A stretch of 10,589 bases of DNA from an uncultured Lachnospiraceae bacterium (lineage in GTDB: Bacteria; Bacillota_A; Clostridia; Lachnospirales; Lachnospiraceae). Shown piece after piece: positions 5,354 to 10,589 of the stretch. How positions within the stretch are numbered: position 1 is the first letter of the stretch; each line of letters begins with the position of its first letter. Position numbers and translations under genes: made by a program. The notes under the pieces were generated by a model. It worked only from the letters and a program-made list of their open reading frames with translations, had not been told where the DNA came from and did no database searches. The stretch covers positions 1 to 10,589 of the forward strand of contig CADBNA010000451.1 in the NCBI GenBank assembly GCA_902795835.1, given 5' to 3'.

Positions 5354-6502
5354 ATGAAAAAGATTGCGATTCTGGGTTCTACAGGGTCTATAGGCACGCA
5401 GACACTGGACGTTGTGCGCCGAAACGGGGATATCCAGGTGACGGCCCTCACGGCCAACCGCAATATTGACCTTCTGGAGCAGCAGATCCGGGAATTTCAT
5501 CCGCATCTGGCGGCAGTGGGAGACGAGAACCTGGCCGCCGAGCTCCGGACCCGGATCGCGGATACGGATACCCGCGTAGCTGCCGGCATGAGCGGTCTGA
5601 TAGAGGCGGCGACAGAGCCGCTTGCGGAGATCGTCGTGACGGCGGTCGTGGGCATGATCGGCATCCGGCCGACGATAGCCGCCATCGAGGCCGGCAAGGA
5701 CATTGCCCTTGCAAATAAAGAGACGCTTGTGACGGCAGGTCACCTGATCATGCCGCTGGCAGAAAAGAAGGGTGTCCGGATTCTTCCGGTGGACAGCGAG
5801 CACTGCGCGATTTTCCAGTGCCTGCACGGCGAGAACCGCGCCGAAGCCGACTATCTGTGGATCACCGCTTCCGGCGGTCCCTTCCGCGGAAAGAAGAGAG
5901 AAGAACTGGCGGATATGCGCCCGGCGGATGCCCTGAAGCACCCGAACTGGAATATGGGAAGCAAGATCACCATCGATTCTGCCACTCTGGTGAACAAAGG
6001 CCTGGAGGTCATGGAAGCCCGGTGGCTGTTCGGCATGCCGCTGGAGAAGATCCGCGTCGTCGTACAGCCGGCCAGCATCATTCATTCCATGGTGGAATTC
6101 CGGGACGGCGCCGTCATGGCGCAGCTTGGCTCCCCGGATATGCGCATGCCCATCCAGTACGCGCTGTATTATCCGGAGCGGAGACCACTGCCGACAGAGC
6201 GGCTGGATTTTCTGTCGCTGCAGCAGATCCGGTTTGAGGCGCCGGATACCGATACGTTCCTCGGACTGCCTCTGGCAAGGGAGGCGGCGCAGACGGGCGG
6301 CAGCATGCCGACCGTGTTCAATGCCGCCAATGAGAAAGCCGTATCACTGTTCCTGCGGGAGAAAATCCGCTTCCTGGAGATCTACGATGTGATCCGGGGC
6401 GCCATGGAGCAGCATACGGTGATTCCCGATCCGGGTCTGGAGGACATCCTGCGGACGGAGAGAGACACGGATGCCTGGATAGAAAGCAGGTGGAAAGCTT
6501 GA
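5354..6502 (+). CDS. dxr: 1-deoxy-D-xylulose 5-phosphate reductoisomerase
   Basis: Dxr rearranges and reduces 1-deoxyxylulose 5-phosphate with NADPH to 2-C-methylerythritol 4-phosphate. This is the first committed step of the MEP isoprenoid pathway, in the cytoplasm, and the step blocked by fosmidomycin. The protein has 382 residues, typical of the family. GSTGSIG at residues 8-14 is the NADPH loop. ANKETLVTAG and PVDSEH follow, with metal ligands Asp147 and Glu149; ITASGGPFR is next, and NKGLEVMEARWLFG supplies the third ligand, Glu218. These correspond to E. coli Asp150, Glu152 and Glu231. The C-terminal helical domain is complete. AAGGAGAG ending near 5345 precedes ATG 5354. Its product ultimately feeds isopentenyl diphosphate to UppS encoded upstream. 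Its end overlaps rseP. Confidence 0.97.
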   Translation: MKKIAILGSTGSIGTQTLDVVRRNGDIQVTALTANRNIDLLEQQIREFHPHLAAVGDENLAAELRTRIADTDTRVAAGMSGLIEAATEPLAEIVVTAVVGMIGIRPTIAAIEAGKDIALANKETLVTAGHLIMPLAEKKGVRILPVDSEHCAIFQCLHGENRAEADYLWITASGGPFRGKKREELADMRPADALKHPNWNMGSKITIDSATLVNKGLEVMEARWLFGMPLEKIRVVVQPASIIHSMVEFRDGAVMAQLGSPDMRMPIQYALYYPERRPLPTERLDFLSLQQIRFEAPDTDTFLGLPLAREAAQTGGSMPTVFNAANEKAVSLFLREKIRFLEIYDVIRGAMEQHTVIPDPGLEDILRTERDTDAWIESRWKA

Positions 6503-7788
6503 GATATCTTGTCGCATTTATCATACTGAGCGCCGTGGTCCTGTTCCACGAATTCGGTCACTACATCCTCGCAAAGAAGAACGGGGTGACCGTGCTGGAA
6601 TTTGCCCTGGGCATGGGGCCTATCCTGTTCTCCTTTGAGAAAAACGGGACGGTCTACGCGGTGAAGGCGCTTCCCTTCGGAGGCTCCTGCGCCATGCTGG
6701 GAGAGGACGGAGACGAAGACCTGGAGGGCAGCTTTTCATCCGCCGCGCTGTGGCGGCGGGCGATGATTGTCGCTGCGGGACCGGTGTTCAACTTTATCCT
6801 GGCTTTTCTGGCGGCTGTGCTGGTGATTGCCCTGTCCGGGTACGATCCGGCCGTCATTACCTCCGTACAGGAGGGATCCCCGGCGGCGGAGGCCGGCCTG
6901 CAGGAAGGCGACCGGGTGCTGCGCTACGAAGGGAACGGCATTGCCAATGCCCGGGAACTGTATACGGATATCATGATGGACGGCGTGCCGCTGGATCAGG
7001 TGGACCTGACCGTAAAAAGGGACGGCCAGAAGATCCGGATCCACTATGCGCCCGAGACAAAGAAAAATTACCTGCTGGGCTTTTCCTATTCGGACATGAA
7101 TGACCAGGTGGTCATCACAAAACTCATCAAAAAAGGCGTACTGCGCAAGGCCGGAGCGGCTGTCAATGACGCAATCATCTCCATAAACGGTCAGCCGGTG
7201 TCCTCACAGAAGGAACTCCAGGATTACCTGGCGGCGCATCCTCTGGACGGCTCACCGGTGGACCTGGTGCTGCAGCGCGGGCACAAAGAGATTGCCCTGG
7301 ACGGCCTGGTGCCGGAAATCACAGAATCGGCAGTGCTGGATTTCGGGTTCAGCCTGTACAGAGAGAAGCAGACTTTTCTGAGTATGCTGCGATGCGGCGC
7401 CGGCGAGGTGGGGTACTGGATCCATGTGACGGTGAAGTCATTGGCCAGCCTCTTCAACGGTACTTTCAGCATCAACGACATGTCCGGTCCTGTCGGCGTG
7501 GTCCGCGCAGTCGGCGACGTCTATGAGGAAGTAAAGCCTGAGGGCCCGATGATGCTGTTCCTGTCCATGATGGATATGCTGATCCTGATCACGGCCAATC
7601 TGGGCGTCATGAACCTGCTGCCGCTGCCGGCGCTGGACGGGGGACGCCTGCTGTTCATGCTGATAGAAGCCATCCGCCGCAAGCCCGTCGACCGGGAGCT
7701 GGAAGGCCGCGTTCACCTGACTGGACTGTTTATCCTTCTGGCGTTTATCATGTACATCACCGTGCAGGATGTGATCAAAATTCTGTAA
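6499..7788 (+). CDS. rseP: RseP/RasP-type site-2 intramembrane zinc protease
   Basis: This membrane metalloprotease cleaves transmembrane segments of anti-sigma factors, and signal-peptide remnants in some bacteria. The zinc motif HEFGH sits in the first membrane helix (residues 17-21 from the TTG start). Two PDZ domains follow (about 115-185, starting near VITSVQEGSPAAEAGL, and about 195-270 with KAGAAVNDAIISINGQPV). The C-terminal helices carry NLLPLPALDGGR (about 372-383), whose Asp is the third zinc ligand. Two starts compete. TTG 6499 overlaps the dxr stop by four bases (TTGA) and has AGGTGG at 6488-6493 with a five-base spacer. GTG 6490 adds three residues but has no clear SD. I chose TTG on that ground. 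Length is about 429 residues. In many Clostridia ispG and polC follow; here the operon ends instead. Confidence 0.94.
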   Translation: MRYLVAFIILSAVVLFHEFGHYILAKKNGVTVLEFALGMGPILFSFEKNGTVYAVKALPFGGSCAMLGEDGDEDLEGSFSSAALWRRAMIVAAGPVFNFILAFLAAVLVIALSGYDPAVITSVQEGSPAAEAGLQEGDRVLRYEGNGIANARELYTDIMMDGVPLDQVDLTVKRDGQKIRIHYAPETKKNYLLGFSYSDMNDQVVITKLIKKGVLRKAGAAVNDAIISINGQPVSSQKELQDYLAAHPLDGSPVDLVLQRGHKEIALDGLVPEITESAVLDFGFSLYREKQTFLSMLRCGAGEVGYWIHVTVKSLASLFNGTFSINDMSGPVGVVRAVGDVYEEVKPEGPMMLFLSMMDMLILITANLGVMNLLPLPALDGGRLLFMLIEAIRRKPVDRELEGRVHLTGLFILLAFIMYITVQDVIKIL

Positions 7789-7980: not shown

Positions 7981-8886
7981 ATGGCTCGTCGTGTACGGAA
8001 AAATAAAAAACAGGGAAAGAAAAGGGTCAGCCTCTTTAATGTGATTCTCGTCCTGATCATGCTTACAGGCCTGGGAATTATAGGATACCCTTCTTTTGCT
8101 GACTGGTGGAATAACTTTCATCAGTCCCGGGCAATCGCCGGGTATATGGAACAGGTAGCCCAGATGGATCCGGAGACCTTTGACCGCATGTGGAAGGAAG
8201 CAGAGGCATACAATGAGTCTCTCCTGCACAAGTCAAACCGGTTCTCTCTGAGTGAAGCTGAAAAGAAAGAATATAATTCCATCCTGAACGTAACCGGGAA
8301 CGGGATTATGGGCTACATAGACATACCGAAGATCGATGTCAGCCTGCCTGTGTATCACGGTACGGATGAATCGGTGCTGCAGACCGCCATCGGACATATC
8401 GAGGGGACATCCCTGCCTGTTGGCGGCATCGGCAATCATTCGGCTGTGTCCGGGCACCGCGGCCTTCCGTCTGCAAAGCTGTTCACAAACATTGACCAGA
8501 TGAAAGAGGGAGACCGCTTCCTGCTGCAGATACTGGATCGTACACTGACCTATGAAGTAGACCAGGTGAAGGTAGTTCTTCCGGATGAGCTGAAGGATCT
8601 GGACTTCGATAAGGAAAAAGATCTCAGTACACTGATTACCTGCACACCTTACGGTGTCAACACCCACCGTCTCCTTGTGAGAGGGCACAGGGTCGAGACA
8701 GACAGTCTGGATCTGCACTTTACAGCAGAAGCCATGAGGCTGGAACAGGTGCTGGCCGCACCAATGCTGGCATCGCCATTCCTGCTTCTGATGCTGCTGG
8801 TGCTGCTGGGTTCAACCGGCGGAAAAAACGGCAATAACAGGAAAAAGAAGTCGAAACGGAAAACGAAGAGTACGGGAATCGCATAA
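7981..8886 (+). CDS. Class C sortase (pilin-polymerising type)
   Basis: Class C sortases are membrane transpeptidases that join pilin subunits through isopeptide bonds outside the cell. The 301-residue protein has a basic N-terminus and a membrane helix at about 18-37. The sortase beta-barrel starts near GYIDIPKIDVSLPVYHGT. SGHRGLPSAKLF carries catalytic His159, and TLITCTPYGVNTHRLLVRGHR carries Cys221 and Arg230. The His-Cys and Cys-Arg spacings (62 and 9) equal those I recall for pneumococcal SrtC-1. A second membrane helix (about 257-277) and a Lys/Arg-rich tail complete the class C layout. The lid region (about 83-95, HKSNRFSLSEAEK) lacks the usual DPW/DPF-type lid motif. ATG 7981 is the first start after an in-frame TAG at 7963, yet no SD precedes it. 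It probably acts on pilins encoded downstream. Confidence 0.93.
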   Translation: MARRVRKNKKQGKKRVSLFNVILVLIMLTGLGIIGYPSFADWWNNFHQSRAIAGYMEQVAQMDPETFDRMWKEAEAYNESLLHKSNRFSLSEAEKKEYNSILNVTGNGIMGYIDIPKIDVSLPVYHGTDESVLQTAIGHIEGTSLPVGGIGNHSAVSGHRGLPSAKLFTNIDQMKEGDRFLLQILDRTLTYEVDQVKVVLPDELKDLDFDKEKDLSTLITCTPYGVNTHRLLVRGHRVETDSLDLHFTAEAMRLEQVLAAPMLASPFLLLMLLVLLGSTGGKNGNNRKKKSKRKTKSTGIA

Positions 8887-8896
8887 GTAATTGGTC

Positions 8897-8930
8897 CCTT
8901 GAGAACGTTCCCAGAAAACGGGCAAGGAGG
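8897..8930 (+). promoter_or_regulatory. Pilin ribosome binding site with possible occluding hairpin
   Basis: AAGGAGG at 8924-8930 lies five bases before the pilin ATG 8936 and is the strongest SD of the accessory region. Upstream, CCTTG 8897-8901 and CCC 8910-8912 can together pair with GGGCAAGG 8920-8927 with an eight-base bulge, covering part of the SD. This could tune pilin translation, but a chance pairing is possible. The 49-base gap to the sortase shows no terminator, so the two genes are probably co-transcribed. Confidence 0.3.
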
Positions 8931-8935
8931 TTGTT

Positions 8936-10153
8936 ATGAACAGGTTAAAGGGCTTAAAAGCTCATATTCGGCGGACAGCAGGGTTAGCCCTGGCATTTAT
9001 GCTGGGAGCGGGAGCGCTGGCGGTTCCTGCGATGGCGGAGGATGGTGCAGTAGCTGCGCTTGATATCACCAGACCAGTTACACTTGTTGTAGAACCGCAG
9101 TATCTGGATACAACACTTGAAAAAATAACGCTGGGCGACGGGCTGCTTTTTGATGTTTACCAGATTGCCGAGGCAAAAAAGCTGGATGGTTTTGATACTT
9201 ATAAATTAGAACTGTGCAGTGGCTTTACGAACGATAATCTGGGTGTTACGGATATTAATGCAGACGATATTAATCTGGATACATGGAATGCAGTAAGTCA
9301 GTCTGCAGCTGACATCATTCTGAATAATAAAGGTGAAGGAGGGGTTGAGATTCTTCCTGTTTTATCCGGAGGAAAGGTTACAACTCCCGGGGGACCCGTT
9401 AATTTAGCCACTTTGCCGGTTAATGCAAAAAATCATGAGACCGGCGGATTGTATTTATTGGTAATGCGGGGGAATTCAACGGAAAAGAGCAGTTACATGG
9501 AACCAGGCACTACTCCTATAACTACTTTTGTTGACTCAGATACAACAACGTATAAATTCCTTCCGATTCTATTTGCGGCTCCTTCAAAAACAACAAAGCA
9601 GGATACCATATTTGACACTTCTGCTGAGGGCGGATGGTATTATGACCGTACGTTCCAGCTGAAAGGCGAAACGGAAAGACGAAAAGGCAGCCTTCGAATT
9701 GTAAAGGACCTGAAGCCTTATGAGGAAAGAGCATGGGCCTTTGATCCTGCCACATTTGTCTATCAGATAGAGGGAAAACTGGCTAATAGTGATGGAACAG
9801 AAACAACTATCTACAGCAATGTAAAATCCATCGTTTTTGACGGCAAGAATGAACCGGATCCGATAGACCTCTTTGATTTGCCTGCAGGAGCAAAGTTTAC
9901 CATTACGGAGATTTATCAGGGCGAAAATTATGAACCAGATAAAGATGCCCCTGTTACTCCCGCTGAGATGCCAGTAATTATTAAGGCCGATCCCAGAGGC
10001 ACTCCACCTAAAACCATATCGGATCAGACAGTAATAGTTACTTTTAAGAATGTTTGGGATAAAACATATCACGGCGGCGGTTCTATAGACAATCTTTACA
10101 AGGATCGTAAATACCAGGGCAGTGATGCGCATAACGGGAAGGTGGTGGAATAA
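8936..10153 (+). CDS. Secreted pilin-like protein with CnaB-like (DUF7601-type) domain
   Basis: The 405-residue protein has a signal peptide (basic start, hydrophobic 14-30, likely cut after AMA at residue 34). An N-terminal pilin-like domain follows (VEPQYLDTTLEKITLGDGLLF then a DVYQIAEAKKLDGFDTYKL stretch). About residues 250-375 form a CnaB-like domain: SLRIVKDL, FVYQIEGKL, DLPAGAKFTITEIY and VTFKNVW. Lys257, Glu325 and Asn372 sit where CnaB folds place the isopeptide Lys, the catalytic acid and the Asn, so an internal Lys-Asn bond is inferred. The tail continues YHGGGSIDNLY and ends KVVE with no LPXTG-like motif, membrane helix or basic tail, so no sortase anchor is visible. It follows the class C sortase and overlaps the next gene by one base. 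Its base composition is lower in GC than the core operon (23/60 in 9241-9300). Assignment as a fibre subunit is inferred from domains and neighbours. Confidence 0.8.
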   Translation: MNRLKGLKAHIRRTAGLALAFMLGAGALAVPAMAEDGAVAALDITRPVTLVVEPQYLDTTLEKITLGDGLLFDVYQIAEAKKLDGFDTYKLELCSGFTNDNLGVTDINADDINLDTWNAVSQSAADIILNNKGEGGVEILPVLSGGKVTTPGGPVNLATLPVNAKNHETGGLYLLVMRGNSTEKSSYMEPGTTPITTFVDSDTTTYKFLPILFAAPSKTTKQDTIFDTSAEGGWYYDRTFQLKGETERRKGSLRIVKDLKPYEERAWAFDPATFVYQIEGKLANSDGTETTIYSNVKSIVFDGKNEPDPIDLFDLPAGAKFTITEIYQGENYEPDKDAPVTPAEMPVIIKADPRGTPPKTISDQTVIVTFKNVWDKTYHGGGSIDNLYKDRKYQGSDAHNGKVVE

Positions 10154-10589
10154 TGAAAAGAACAGGAAAAAATAATACCACCCGTTCTCTGCTGGTTTTT
10201 TCTCTTGCTGTTATTCTGGTAGTGGGAGCATCTCTCGGGGCTGCGTGGGCTTATTTTACCACTTATGCCCGCGCACTAGGCAGCCGGAGAATCAGTCTGC
10301 AGGATACCACCACGCTTATAGAAGAATTTGATGATACTTACAGTCATAAGTATGTAAGTATACAGAATAATACCACTTCAACTCAGCCGGTGTACGTTCG
10401 TGTTGCTGCCTTTGTAGGAAATAAGGGCGTGCTAGATGTTACTCAGGGAAAGTGGTTTATTCCGAATCCCGCTGATTTGAGTGCTGATGGCGCGTATGGG
10501 TATTACTATTATCCGGATGTATTAATGCCGGGTGACACCACAGAGAAATTAGATATAGGGATTACACTTCCAGAGCTGTCAGGTGTTCC
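10153..10589 (+). CDS. TasA/CalY-like protein with SipW-type signal sequence, 3'-truncated
   Basis: An open frame of 145 codons starts at ATG 10153 within TAATG, overlapping the pilin stop by one base, with AAGGTGG at 10139-10145 as SD. It runs off the window. The N-terminus is basic (MKRTGKNNTTR), followed by a hydrophobic helix at 12-33 and AAWAYFTTYARALG at 30-43. This resembles the LAYFTD-type hallmark of SipW-dependent signal peptides in TasA/CalY fibre proteins. The mature part (YVSIQNNTTSTQPVYVRVAAF at about 72-92, later YYYYPDVLMPGDTT) looks like the beta-sandwich of that family, with its NTG-type strand and PGD turn. An export role for an archaic-type SPase I (SipW) is inferred; such a gene is not in the window. 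The C-terminus is missing, so presence of an anchor cannot be judged. Confidence 0.7.
   Translation, partial: MKRTGKNNTTRSLLVFSLAVILVVGASLGAAWAYFTTYARALGSRRISLQDTTTLIEEFDDTYSHKYVSIQNNTTSTQPVYVRVAAFVGNKGVLDVTQGKWFIPNPADLSADGAYGYYYYPDVLMPGDTTEKLDIGITLPELSGV

Follow-up and report, generated by a model that had tools for sequence, protein, structure and literature searches.

A conserved gene set of gut bacteria that appears to unite two surface-fibre machineries usually described apart

The locus and its three genes

The DNA considered here, called the window below, is a stretch of 10,589 nucleotides from an uncultured Lachnospiraceae bacterium (contig CADBNA010000451.1). Its right end holds three genes, for a class C sortase, for a secreted pilin-like protein that we call the connector, and for YFT1, a secreted protein with a SipW-type signal. 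An earlier note on this DNA had proposed that a class C sortase, an anchor-less CnaB-like pilin and a protein with a YFTTYARALG signal are packed together there, and that the last two genes are coupled by TAATG. Family searches and reading of the open reading frames (ORFs) confirm the packing, and the overlap is present. The features are as follows.

7981-8886, + strand: class C sortase (srtC), 301 residues; 279.4 bits to NF033745, above the family cut-off of 160
8936-10153, + strand: connector, a base-pilin-like protein of 405 residues with signal peptide, pilin D1 domain and CnaB (DUF5979-like) domain
9047-9673, + strand: D1 domain of class C pilins, connector residues 38-246
9635-9664, + strand: pilin-motif-like segment W234...K243 (WYYDRTFQLK)
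9677-10063, + strand: CnaB/DUF5979-like domain, residues 248-376, with predicted isopeptide triad K257, E325 and N372
10067-10111, + strand: C-terminal tail GGGSIDNLY (GxGIxNxF motif), with N386 invariant (50/50)
10151-10155, + strand: TAATG stop-start overlap coupling the connector to YFT1
10153-10587, + strand: YFT1, secreted, with AWA/YFTTYARALG SipW-type signal, a distant BsaA relative; open at the window end

The nearest solved chain to the window sortase is PDB 8gr6 (E 9e-73), and its identity to sortases of related loci is 62.6-66.3% for the best six matches. The signal of YFT1, read from 10153, is AAWAYFTTYARALG. The window ends within this gene, and a 210-residue protein (P0001), 99% identical across the whole window portion, supplies the full length.

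The connector shows the D1 fold of a pilin with a lysine at the place of the pilin motif, a predicted acceptor, as SpaB does. The W and the K are both kept in 50/50 aligned rows, with a spacing of nine in 45/50, and the relative L076 shows WNYNVKIYPK at the same place. The CnaB-type match to DUF5979 is 18.6 bits in the window protein, under the cut-off of 25; 48/50 members of the connector alignment (A5) match that model at E ≤ 1, and P0008, P0011, P0013 and the L001 connector score above the cut-off. The wall-sorting signal that SpaB carries at its own C-terminus is lacking: the window connector has no LPXTG and no hydrophobic C-terminus (17-residue hydropathy maximum 0.74 over the last 100 residues), and for this reason we class it as base-pilin-like only. 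LPXTG is likewise absent from 57/57 connectors scanned over their full length; 29 others, including the giant forms described below, lack it in their last 70 residues. The connector thus looks like the base pilin of a pilus in which CnaB domain and GxGIxNxF tail replace the wall anchor.

Conserved gene order in related loci

Is the grouping of these genes peculiar to the window? When genome contigs were searched with a YFT1 alignment and no other protein, 47 loci were obtained; their ORFs were scored with iterated profiles built on seeds from at most three of them. Most are from Lachnospiraceae, with some from Oscillospiraceae/Ruminococcaceae and three from Adlercreutzia. On a single strand the order is LPXTG adhesin, LPXTG pilin, srtC, connector, YFT1, YFT2, tgd, MucBP and SipW; a class B sortase (11 hits) or a BTAD regulator (23 hits) comes next in some loci. 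The order srtC-connector-YFT1 is found in 44/47 loci, the other three (L025, L027 and L031) starting at a contig edge; because it recurs in loci found with the third protein alone, the order is not due to chance. Other members are nearly as constant: srtC in 45 loci, the connector in 46, YFT2 in 47, tgd in 46, MucBP in 45 and SipW in 43. Missing parts fall at contig ends (L021, L027, L031, L036), except for MucBP in L045 and SipW in L043. From this recurrence it would appear that gut bacteria carry a conserved gene set uniting two surface-fibre machineries usually described apart.

The earlier note had looked to the DNA beyond the window for a SipW signal peptidase and for further YFT-signal proteins, and the relatives have both: a SipW-type peptidase in 43/47 loci and in a fusion in L043, with L021, L027 and L036 stopping at a contig edge before it, and a second SipW-type protein, YFT2, in all 47. 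It had also looked for an LPXTG tip or base protein. LPXTG adhesins and pilins lie upstream of srtC in most relatives, not in all (an LPXTG pilin-profile match starts within 6.5 kb upstream in 31/47 loci), and none lies beside the window sortase. As grounds for dropping its proposal the note had named unrelated downstream genes, a lack of SipW and a lack of a conserved neighbourhood; none of these was found, and a single gene order runs across the related loci.

Several simpler accounts were rejected. Chance adjacency does not fit the recurrent order, nor the adjacency of connector and YFT1 in 27/27 cases of an independent sample (below). Chimeric assembly of metagenome-assembled genomes (MAGs) does not fit the presence of the locus on contigs 3.6 and 3.4 Mb long (L073, L074). 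A plain TasA operon would not include the connector and its D1, which are foreign to such an operon.

Two loci vary in SipW. In L043 (13118-14539, + strand) a single ORF encodes a fusion of SipW-type signal peptidase and class B sortase, above both curated cut-offs (TIGR02228, 86.8 against 51.85; TIGR03064, 182.6 against 153.75). In L020 (13169-13768, + strand) SipW is split over two neighbouring ORFs, which may reflect a broken gene or an assembly error.

The proteins of the SipW side

YFT1 and YFT2 resemble BsaA at a distance. The BsaA model TIGR04090 is matched at E ≤ 1 by 36/49 YFT1 and 33/35 YFT2 proteins, with best E values of 9e-9 and 1e-9; the members listed lie under its 60-bit cut-off, P0001 at 15.2 bits. 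The SipW-signal model TIGR04088 is matched at E ≤ 1 by 5/49 YFT1 proteins. After TGD (41/46) or TSD (4/46), the tgd proteins close with a membrane segment and basic residues; in Adlercreutzia the motif is LPQTGD. The sortase B target model is matched at E ≤ 1 by 6 of the 31 examined among the 46. With its C-terminal KTGD-type sorting signal and membrane segment, tgd is probably linked to the wall by a sortase. The SipW proteins of the relatives are of the Ser-His type of signal peptidase, with S59 and H97 kept in 16/16 aligned proteins (47 profile hits); in the present DNA their place lies beyond the window end.

Co-occurrence in an independent sample

An independent sample of 250 genomes of one family, evenly drawn, gave 27 copies of YFT1 (E ≤ 1e-20) in 18 genomes. 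The connector domain (E ≤ 1e-8) was also found in 27 copies, which are confined to these 18 genomes, and 27/27 connector-YFT1 pairs lie on the same strand with their matches 33-216 bp apart. Class C sortase (E ≤ 1e-40) is present in 18/18 of these genomes versus 59/232 of the others (p 1.3e-10, kinship ignored), and a SipW-type peptidase is above cut-off in all 18. At E ≤ 1e-20, YFT1 was found in 14 of 344 genomes from the order, three of them already known. One genome of about 2.2 Mb (G239; contigs C10, C38 and C46) carries four YFT1/connector copies, two with giant adhesins.

Natural domain swaps

The 27 connectors of the 250-genome sample form an unselected set, and they fall into two size classes. 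In 22 the frame is of 323-447 residues, and srtC lies within 3.5 kb upstream of 19; the other three short connectors (L081, L082 and the second L076 copy) have an LPXTG protein upstream. The remaining five frames are of 1009-3641 residues, and srtC lies within that distance of 0/5. Four of the five long proteins (L078, L079, L080, L103) lack D1 and its lysine.

A wider set of 76 connectors comprises 46 from the 47 scan loci, that of the window, and 29 from additional genome regions. Some regions (G022:C11, G239:C38 and C46, G035:C67, G084) were chosen for having no sortase beside YFT1, so that this set over-represents sortase-less cases, and the unselected 27 were counted too for that reason. 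Excluded were the partial connector ending L099 (the same gene is in L100), the 3.5-kb pieces L063-L072, L101:4203-5039 (under the connector threshold), L027 (where the contig edge precedes the connector) and P0008-P0013 (no context). YFT1 is directly downstream in 76/76. The D1 lysine is present in 69/76 (68 by script, and L036 from the alignment); of these, 59 have srtC within 3 kb upstream, eight have an LPXTG protein and no srtC, and two (L031, L083) begin at a contig edge. Six of the seven connectors without lysine are giants (L078, L079, L080, L093, L102, L103), adhesins of 1072 to about 3640 residues that end in CnaB domain and tail; the seventh, L090, is an exception that has both a sortase and an LPXTG pilin. 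None of the six giants, both G239 ones included, has srtC within 3 kb or an LPXTG-profile protein within 4.5 kb upstream, and none has LPXTG in its last 70 residues. All four giants scanned (L078, L079, L093, L102) have Cna_B, FctA, VWA or SpaA domains.

What becomes of D1 where the CnaB-tail end is missing? In L101, which also holds a complete module further down, a D1 protein encoded after two sortases has a C-terminus of GPKTGD, membrane segment and basic residues, and YFT1 does not come next. A search of the 250 genomes with D1 alone found three matches (31-34 bits, about positions 6-120 of 180) in genomes without a connector or YFT1 match, each adjoining a class C sortase. By reading, all three proteins have an anchor of their own, LPQTG in L104 and L105 and membrane segments in L106. 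Four D1 proteins without the CnaB-tail thus bear their own anchor, and we conclude that the connector end replaces the wall anchor. L104 (3652-5235, - strand) is unusual in that a single ORF contains the base-pilin D1, a CnaB-like part, the LPQTG sorting signal and a sortase-like domain.

A proposed mechanism and its rivals

According to standard teaching, sortase pili are finished by covalent attachment to the wall, and SipW fibres do without sortases. How might the two be joined here? From the observed gene content, pairing, domain architecture, invariant residues and domain swaps we propose the following order of assembly. The three window genes would be the start of a conserved surface-display operon, and the 405-residue connector would be the base subunit of a sortase-built pilus. 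K243 of D1 would receive the LPXTG pilus polymer, through its threonine, from the class C sortase, forming an isopeptide bond with which polymerisation ends, a step resembling the role of SpaB in corynebacteria. Lacking the wall-sorting signal of an ordinary base pilin, the connector would instead dock through its CnaB domain and GxGIxNxF tail on a platform of YFT1, YFT2, tgd and the membrane-anchored MucBP, the BsaA-like YFT1 and YFT2 having their signals cut by the operon's SipW-type peptidase. The same platform may carry a giant adhesin ending in the CnaB-tail, with no sortase alongside. We think it reasonably likely that the connector lysine takes over a sortase pilus, which a platform processed by SipW holds without a covalent bond. 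We lean, somewhat less firmly, to the more general idea of plug-and-socket anchoring, in which a CnaB-GxGIxNxF plug fits a SipW-processed socket (YFT1, YFT2, tgd and MucBP) and the cargo, lysine-bearing D1 with its pilus or a sortase-less giant adhesin, can be swapped. As far as gene content and domain logic go, the hybrid interpretation of the earlier note is supported; the physical combination of sortase products with SipW-processed subunits we infer, the natural domain swaps favouring it.

Known systems offer partial likenesses. Sortase-assembled pili (SpaA/CppA/RrgB, with a SpaB base) share the class C sortase, LPXTG pilins with isopeptide domains and the base lysine, SpaB being, in the part of PMC3297441 available to us, the base subunit that gives its lysine to the pilus sortase; they differ from the present system, where the base has no sorting signal and the CnaB-GxGIxNxF end is paired with SipW-type proteins. 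The nearest published system found in the accessible texts is sipW-bsaABCRSD of Clostridium perfringens, alike in its SipW-type peptidase, BsaA-like secreted proteins and adjacent sortase gene. No D1-CnaB connector is reported in the accessible part of its description, and YFT1 and YFT2 are sub-threshold relatives of BsaA. The Bacillus tapA-sipW-tasA system and TasA/CalY/CapP of Bacillus cereus, the latter called sortase-independent, are alike in SipW-processed subunits and an accessory protein, whereas neither pilins nor a connector are reported for them in the portion of PMC13082335 at hand. The pilus operon of C. perfringens VR-10B also has its own signal peptidase and sortase; it differs in having three pilins with the signal peptidase and a class B sortase, and the name SipW appears nowhere in the text of PMC8088525. 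PMC5817068, as far as its accessible sections go, handles covalent pili and SipW amyloid pili separately. No combined sortase-pilus/SipW system was recognised in the literature by title and abstract opening, which is weak evidence, with few subscription journals and preprints covered.

Might the locus instead encode separate but co-regulated appendages, a sortase pilus and an independent BsaA/TasA-like matrix fibre under shared biofilm regulation? We think this unlikely. There is a precedent in C. perfringens, where the sortase gene beside sipW-bsaA is dispensable for BsaA polymers and its mutant showed no difference, according to the accessible part of PMC7395162, and the BsaA matches of YFT1 and YFT2, the listed ones far below cut-off, also agree with it. 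One would not expect of two separate appendages, however, that the connector is never found without YFT1 in 250 genomes, that the pairing persists in sortase-less cases with the connector at the end of a giant adhesin, or that none of the connectors scanned showed LPXTG. A role for YFT1 and YFT2 as secretion or assembly chaperones like CapP or TapA, with tgd or MucBP holding the pilus or adhesin directly, is a little harder still to credit. Both proteins are small, anchor-less and encoded immediately behind the connector, and CapP of B. cereus is a chaperone-like SipW substrate in the part of PMC13082335 available; such sequence similarity as exists points, however, to BsaA, a fibre subunit. 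That the connector is an ordinary secreted pilin unused by sortase, its W...K motif being structural only, is very improbable. It is true that it has no LPXTG, and that neither the D1 profile nor the one member compared gave a sequence-level match to solved pilins; but K243 is kept in every aligned connector and lost with the whole D1 in six sortase-less giants, and the connector-side sortase paralogues form a branch of their own.

A number of observations weigh against the anchoring mechanism that we prefer. The dispensable sortase gene of C. perfringens, in the part of the source cited above, means that neighbourhood alone proves little. A further 27 of the 250 genomes have weak YFT1 matches only (E 1e-5 to 1e-15) and no connector, so BsaA-like proteins also occur without it, and among the matches listed for the predicted YFT1 model there was no TasA-type structure. 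The spacing of W and K is 11 or 13 in 5/50 connectors, and the profile comparison of connector with LPXTG pilins aligned 22 columns only, so that fold, spacing and a single textbook relative are the grounds for assigning K243 to the pilin motif. L083, a long protein cut at the contig start, retains D1 and lysine; L090 has a sortase and an LPXTG pilin, yet a connector without the W...K motif; the D1 of L104 lacks the W; and the two sortases of L099 fall off the branches expected from their position. In the window itself the gene upstream of the sortase is rseP, no LPXTG pilin being adjacent, and nothing is readable beyond 10589. Our counts ignore kinship, and many of the loci are from MAGs.

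If the proposal is true, a base pilin in which a SipW-dependent partner has replaced the wall signal would link the two fibre types, secreted giant adhesins without visible anchor would be explained, and gut Lachnospiraceae would gain a modular adhesion device.

The sortase subtype of the window

Where would the window sortase find its pilins? In a sortase tree its grouping, with a weak support of 0.61, is with the sortases of L030, L034, L035, L036, L038 and L044 and with the connector-side copies in L029 and L033, these eight being together at 0.998; L046 branches just outside. Upstream of the sortase, L034, L036, L044 and L046 have no LPXTG protein over at least 2.9 kb; L030, L035 and L038 are uninformative on this side, as about 1 kb or less separates their sortase from the contig start. 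In the genomes of all seven loci the module sortase is the sole class C sortase above cut-off, and LPXTG anchors are present in 9/9 genomes searched. L029 and L033 have two sortases each, the first following the LPXTG pilin and the second preceding the connector, and the two fall on different branches; ten other two-sortase loci split alike (support 0.999 and 0.929). In two of the genomes whose only class C sortase above cut-off lies in the module, pairs of LPXTG adhesin and pilin with no sortase beside them were read, at L084 (G002:C81) and L085 (G004:C15). With a lone module sortase and LPXTG pairs elsewhere, the window sortase may therefore act on pilins encoded elsewhere; for this subtype the LPXTG pilins are probably distributed in that way, within the limits set by gaps in MAGs.

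The remainder of the window

The left of the window is filled by a housekeeping run, in which family searches identified two genes.

625-1965: aspartate kinase
6490-7788: RseP-type protease (rseP), directly upstream of the window sortase

A partial ORF at 1-540, without match in the NCBIfam search, is presumably similar to DUF5662 proteins. From ORF reading alone the run also includes pyrH, frr, uppS, cdsA and dxr, and a gap of 192 bp separates it from the three + strand genes.
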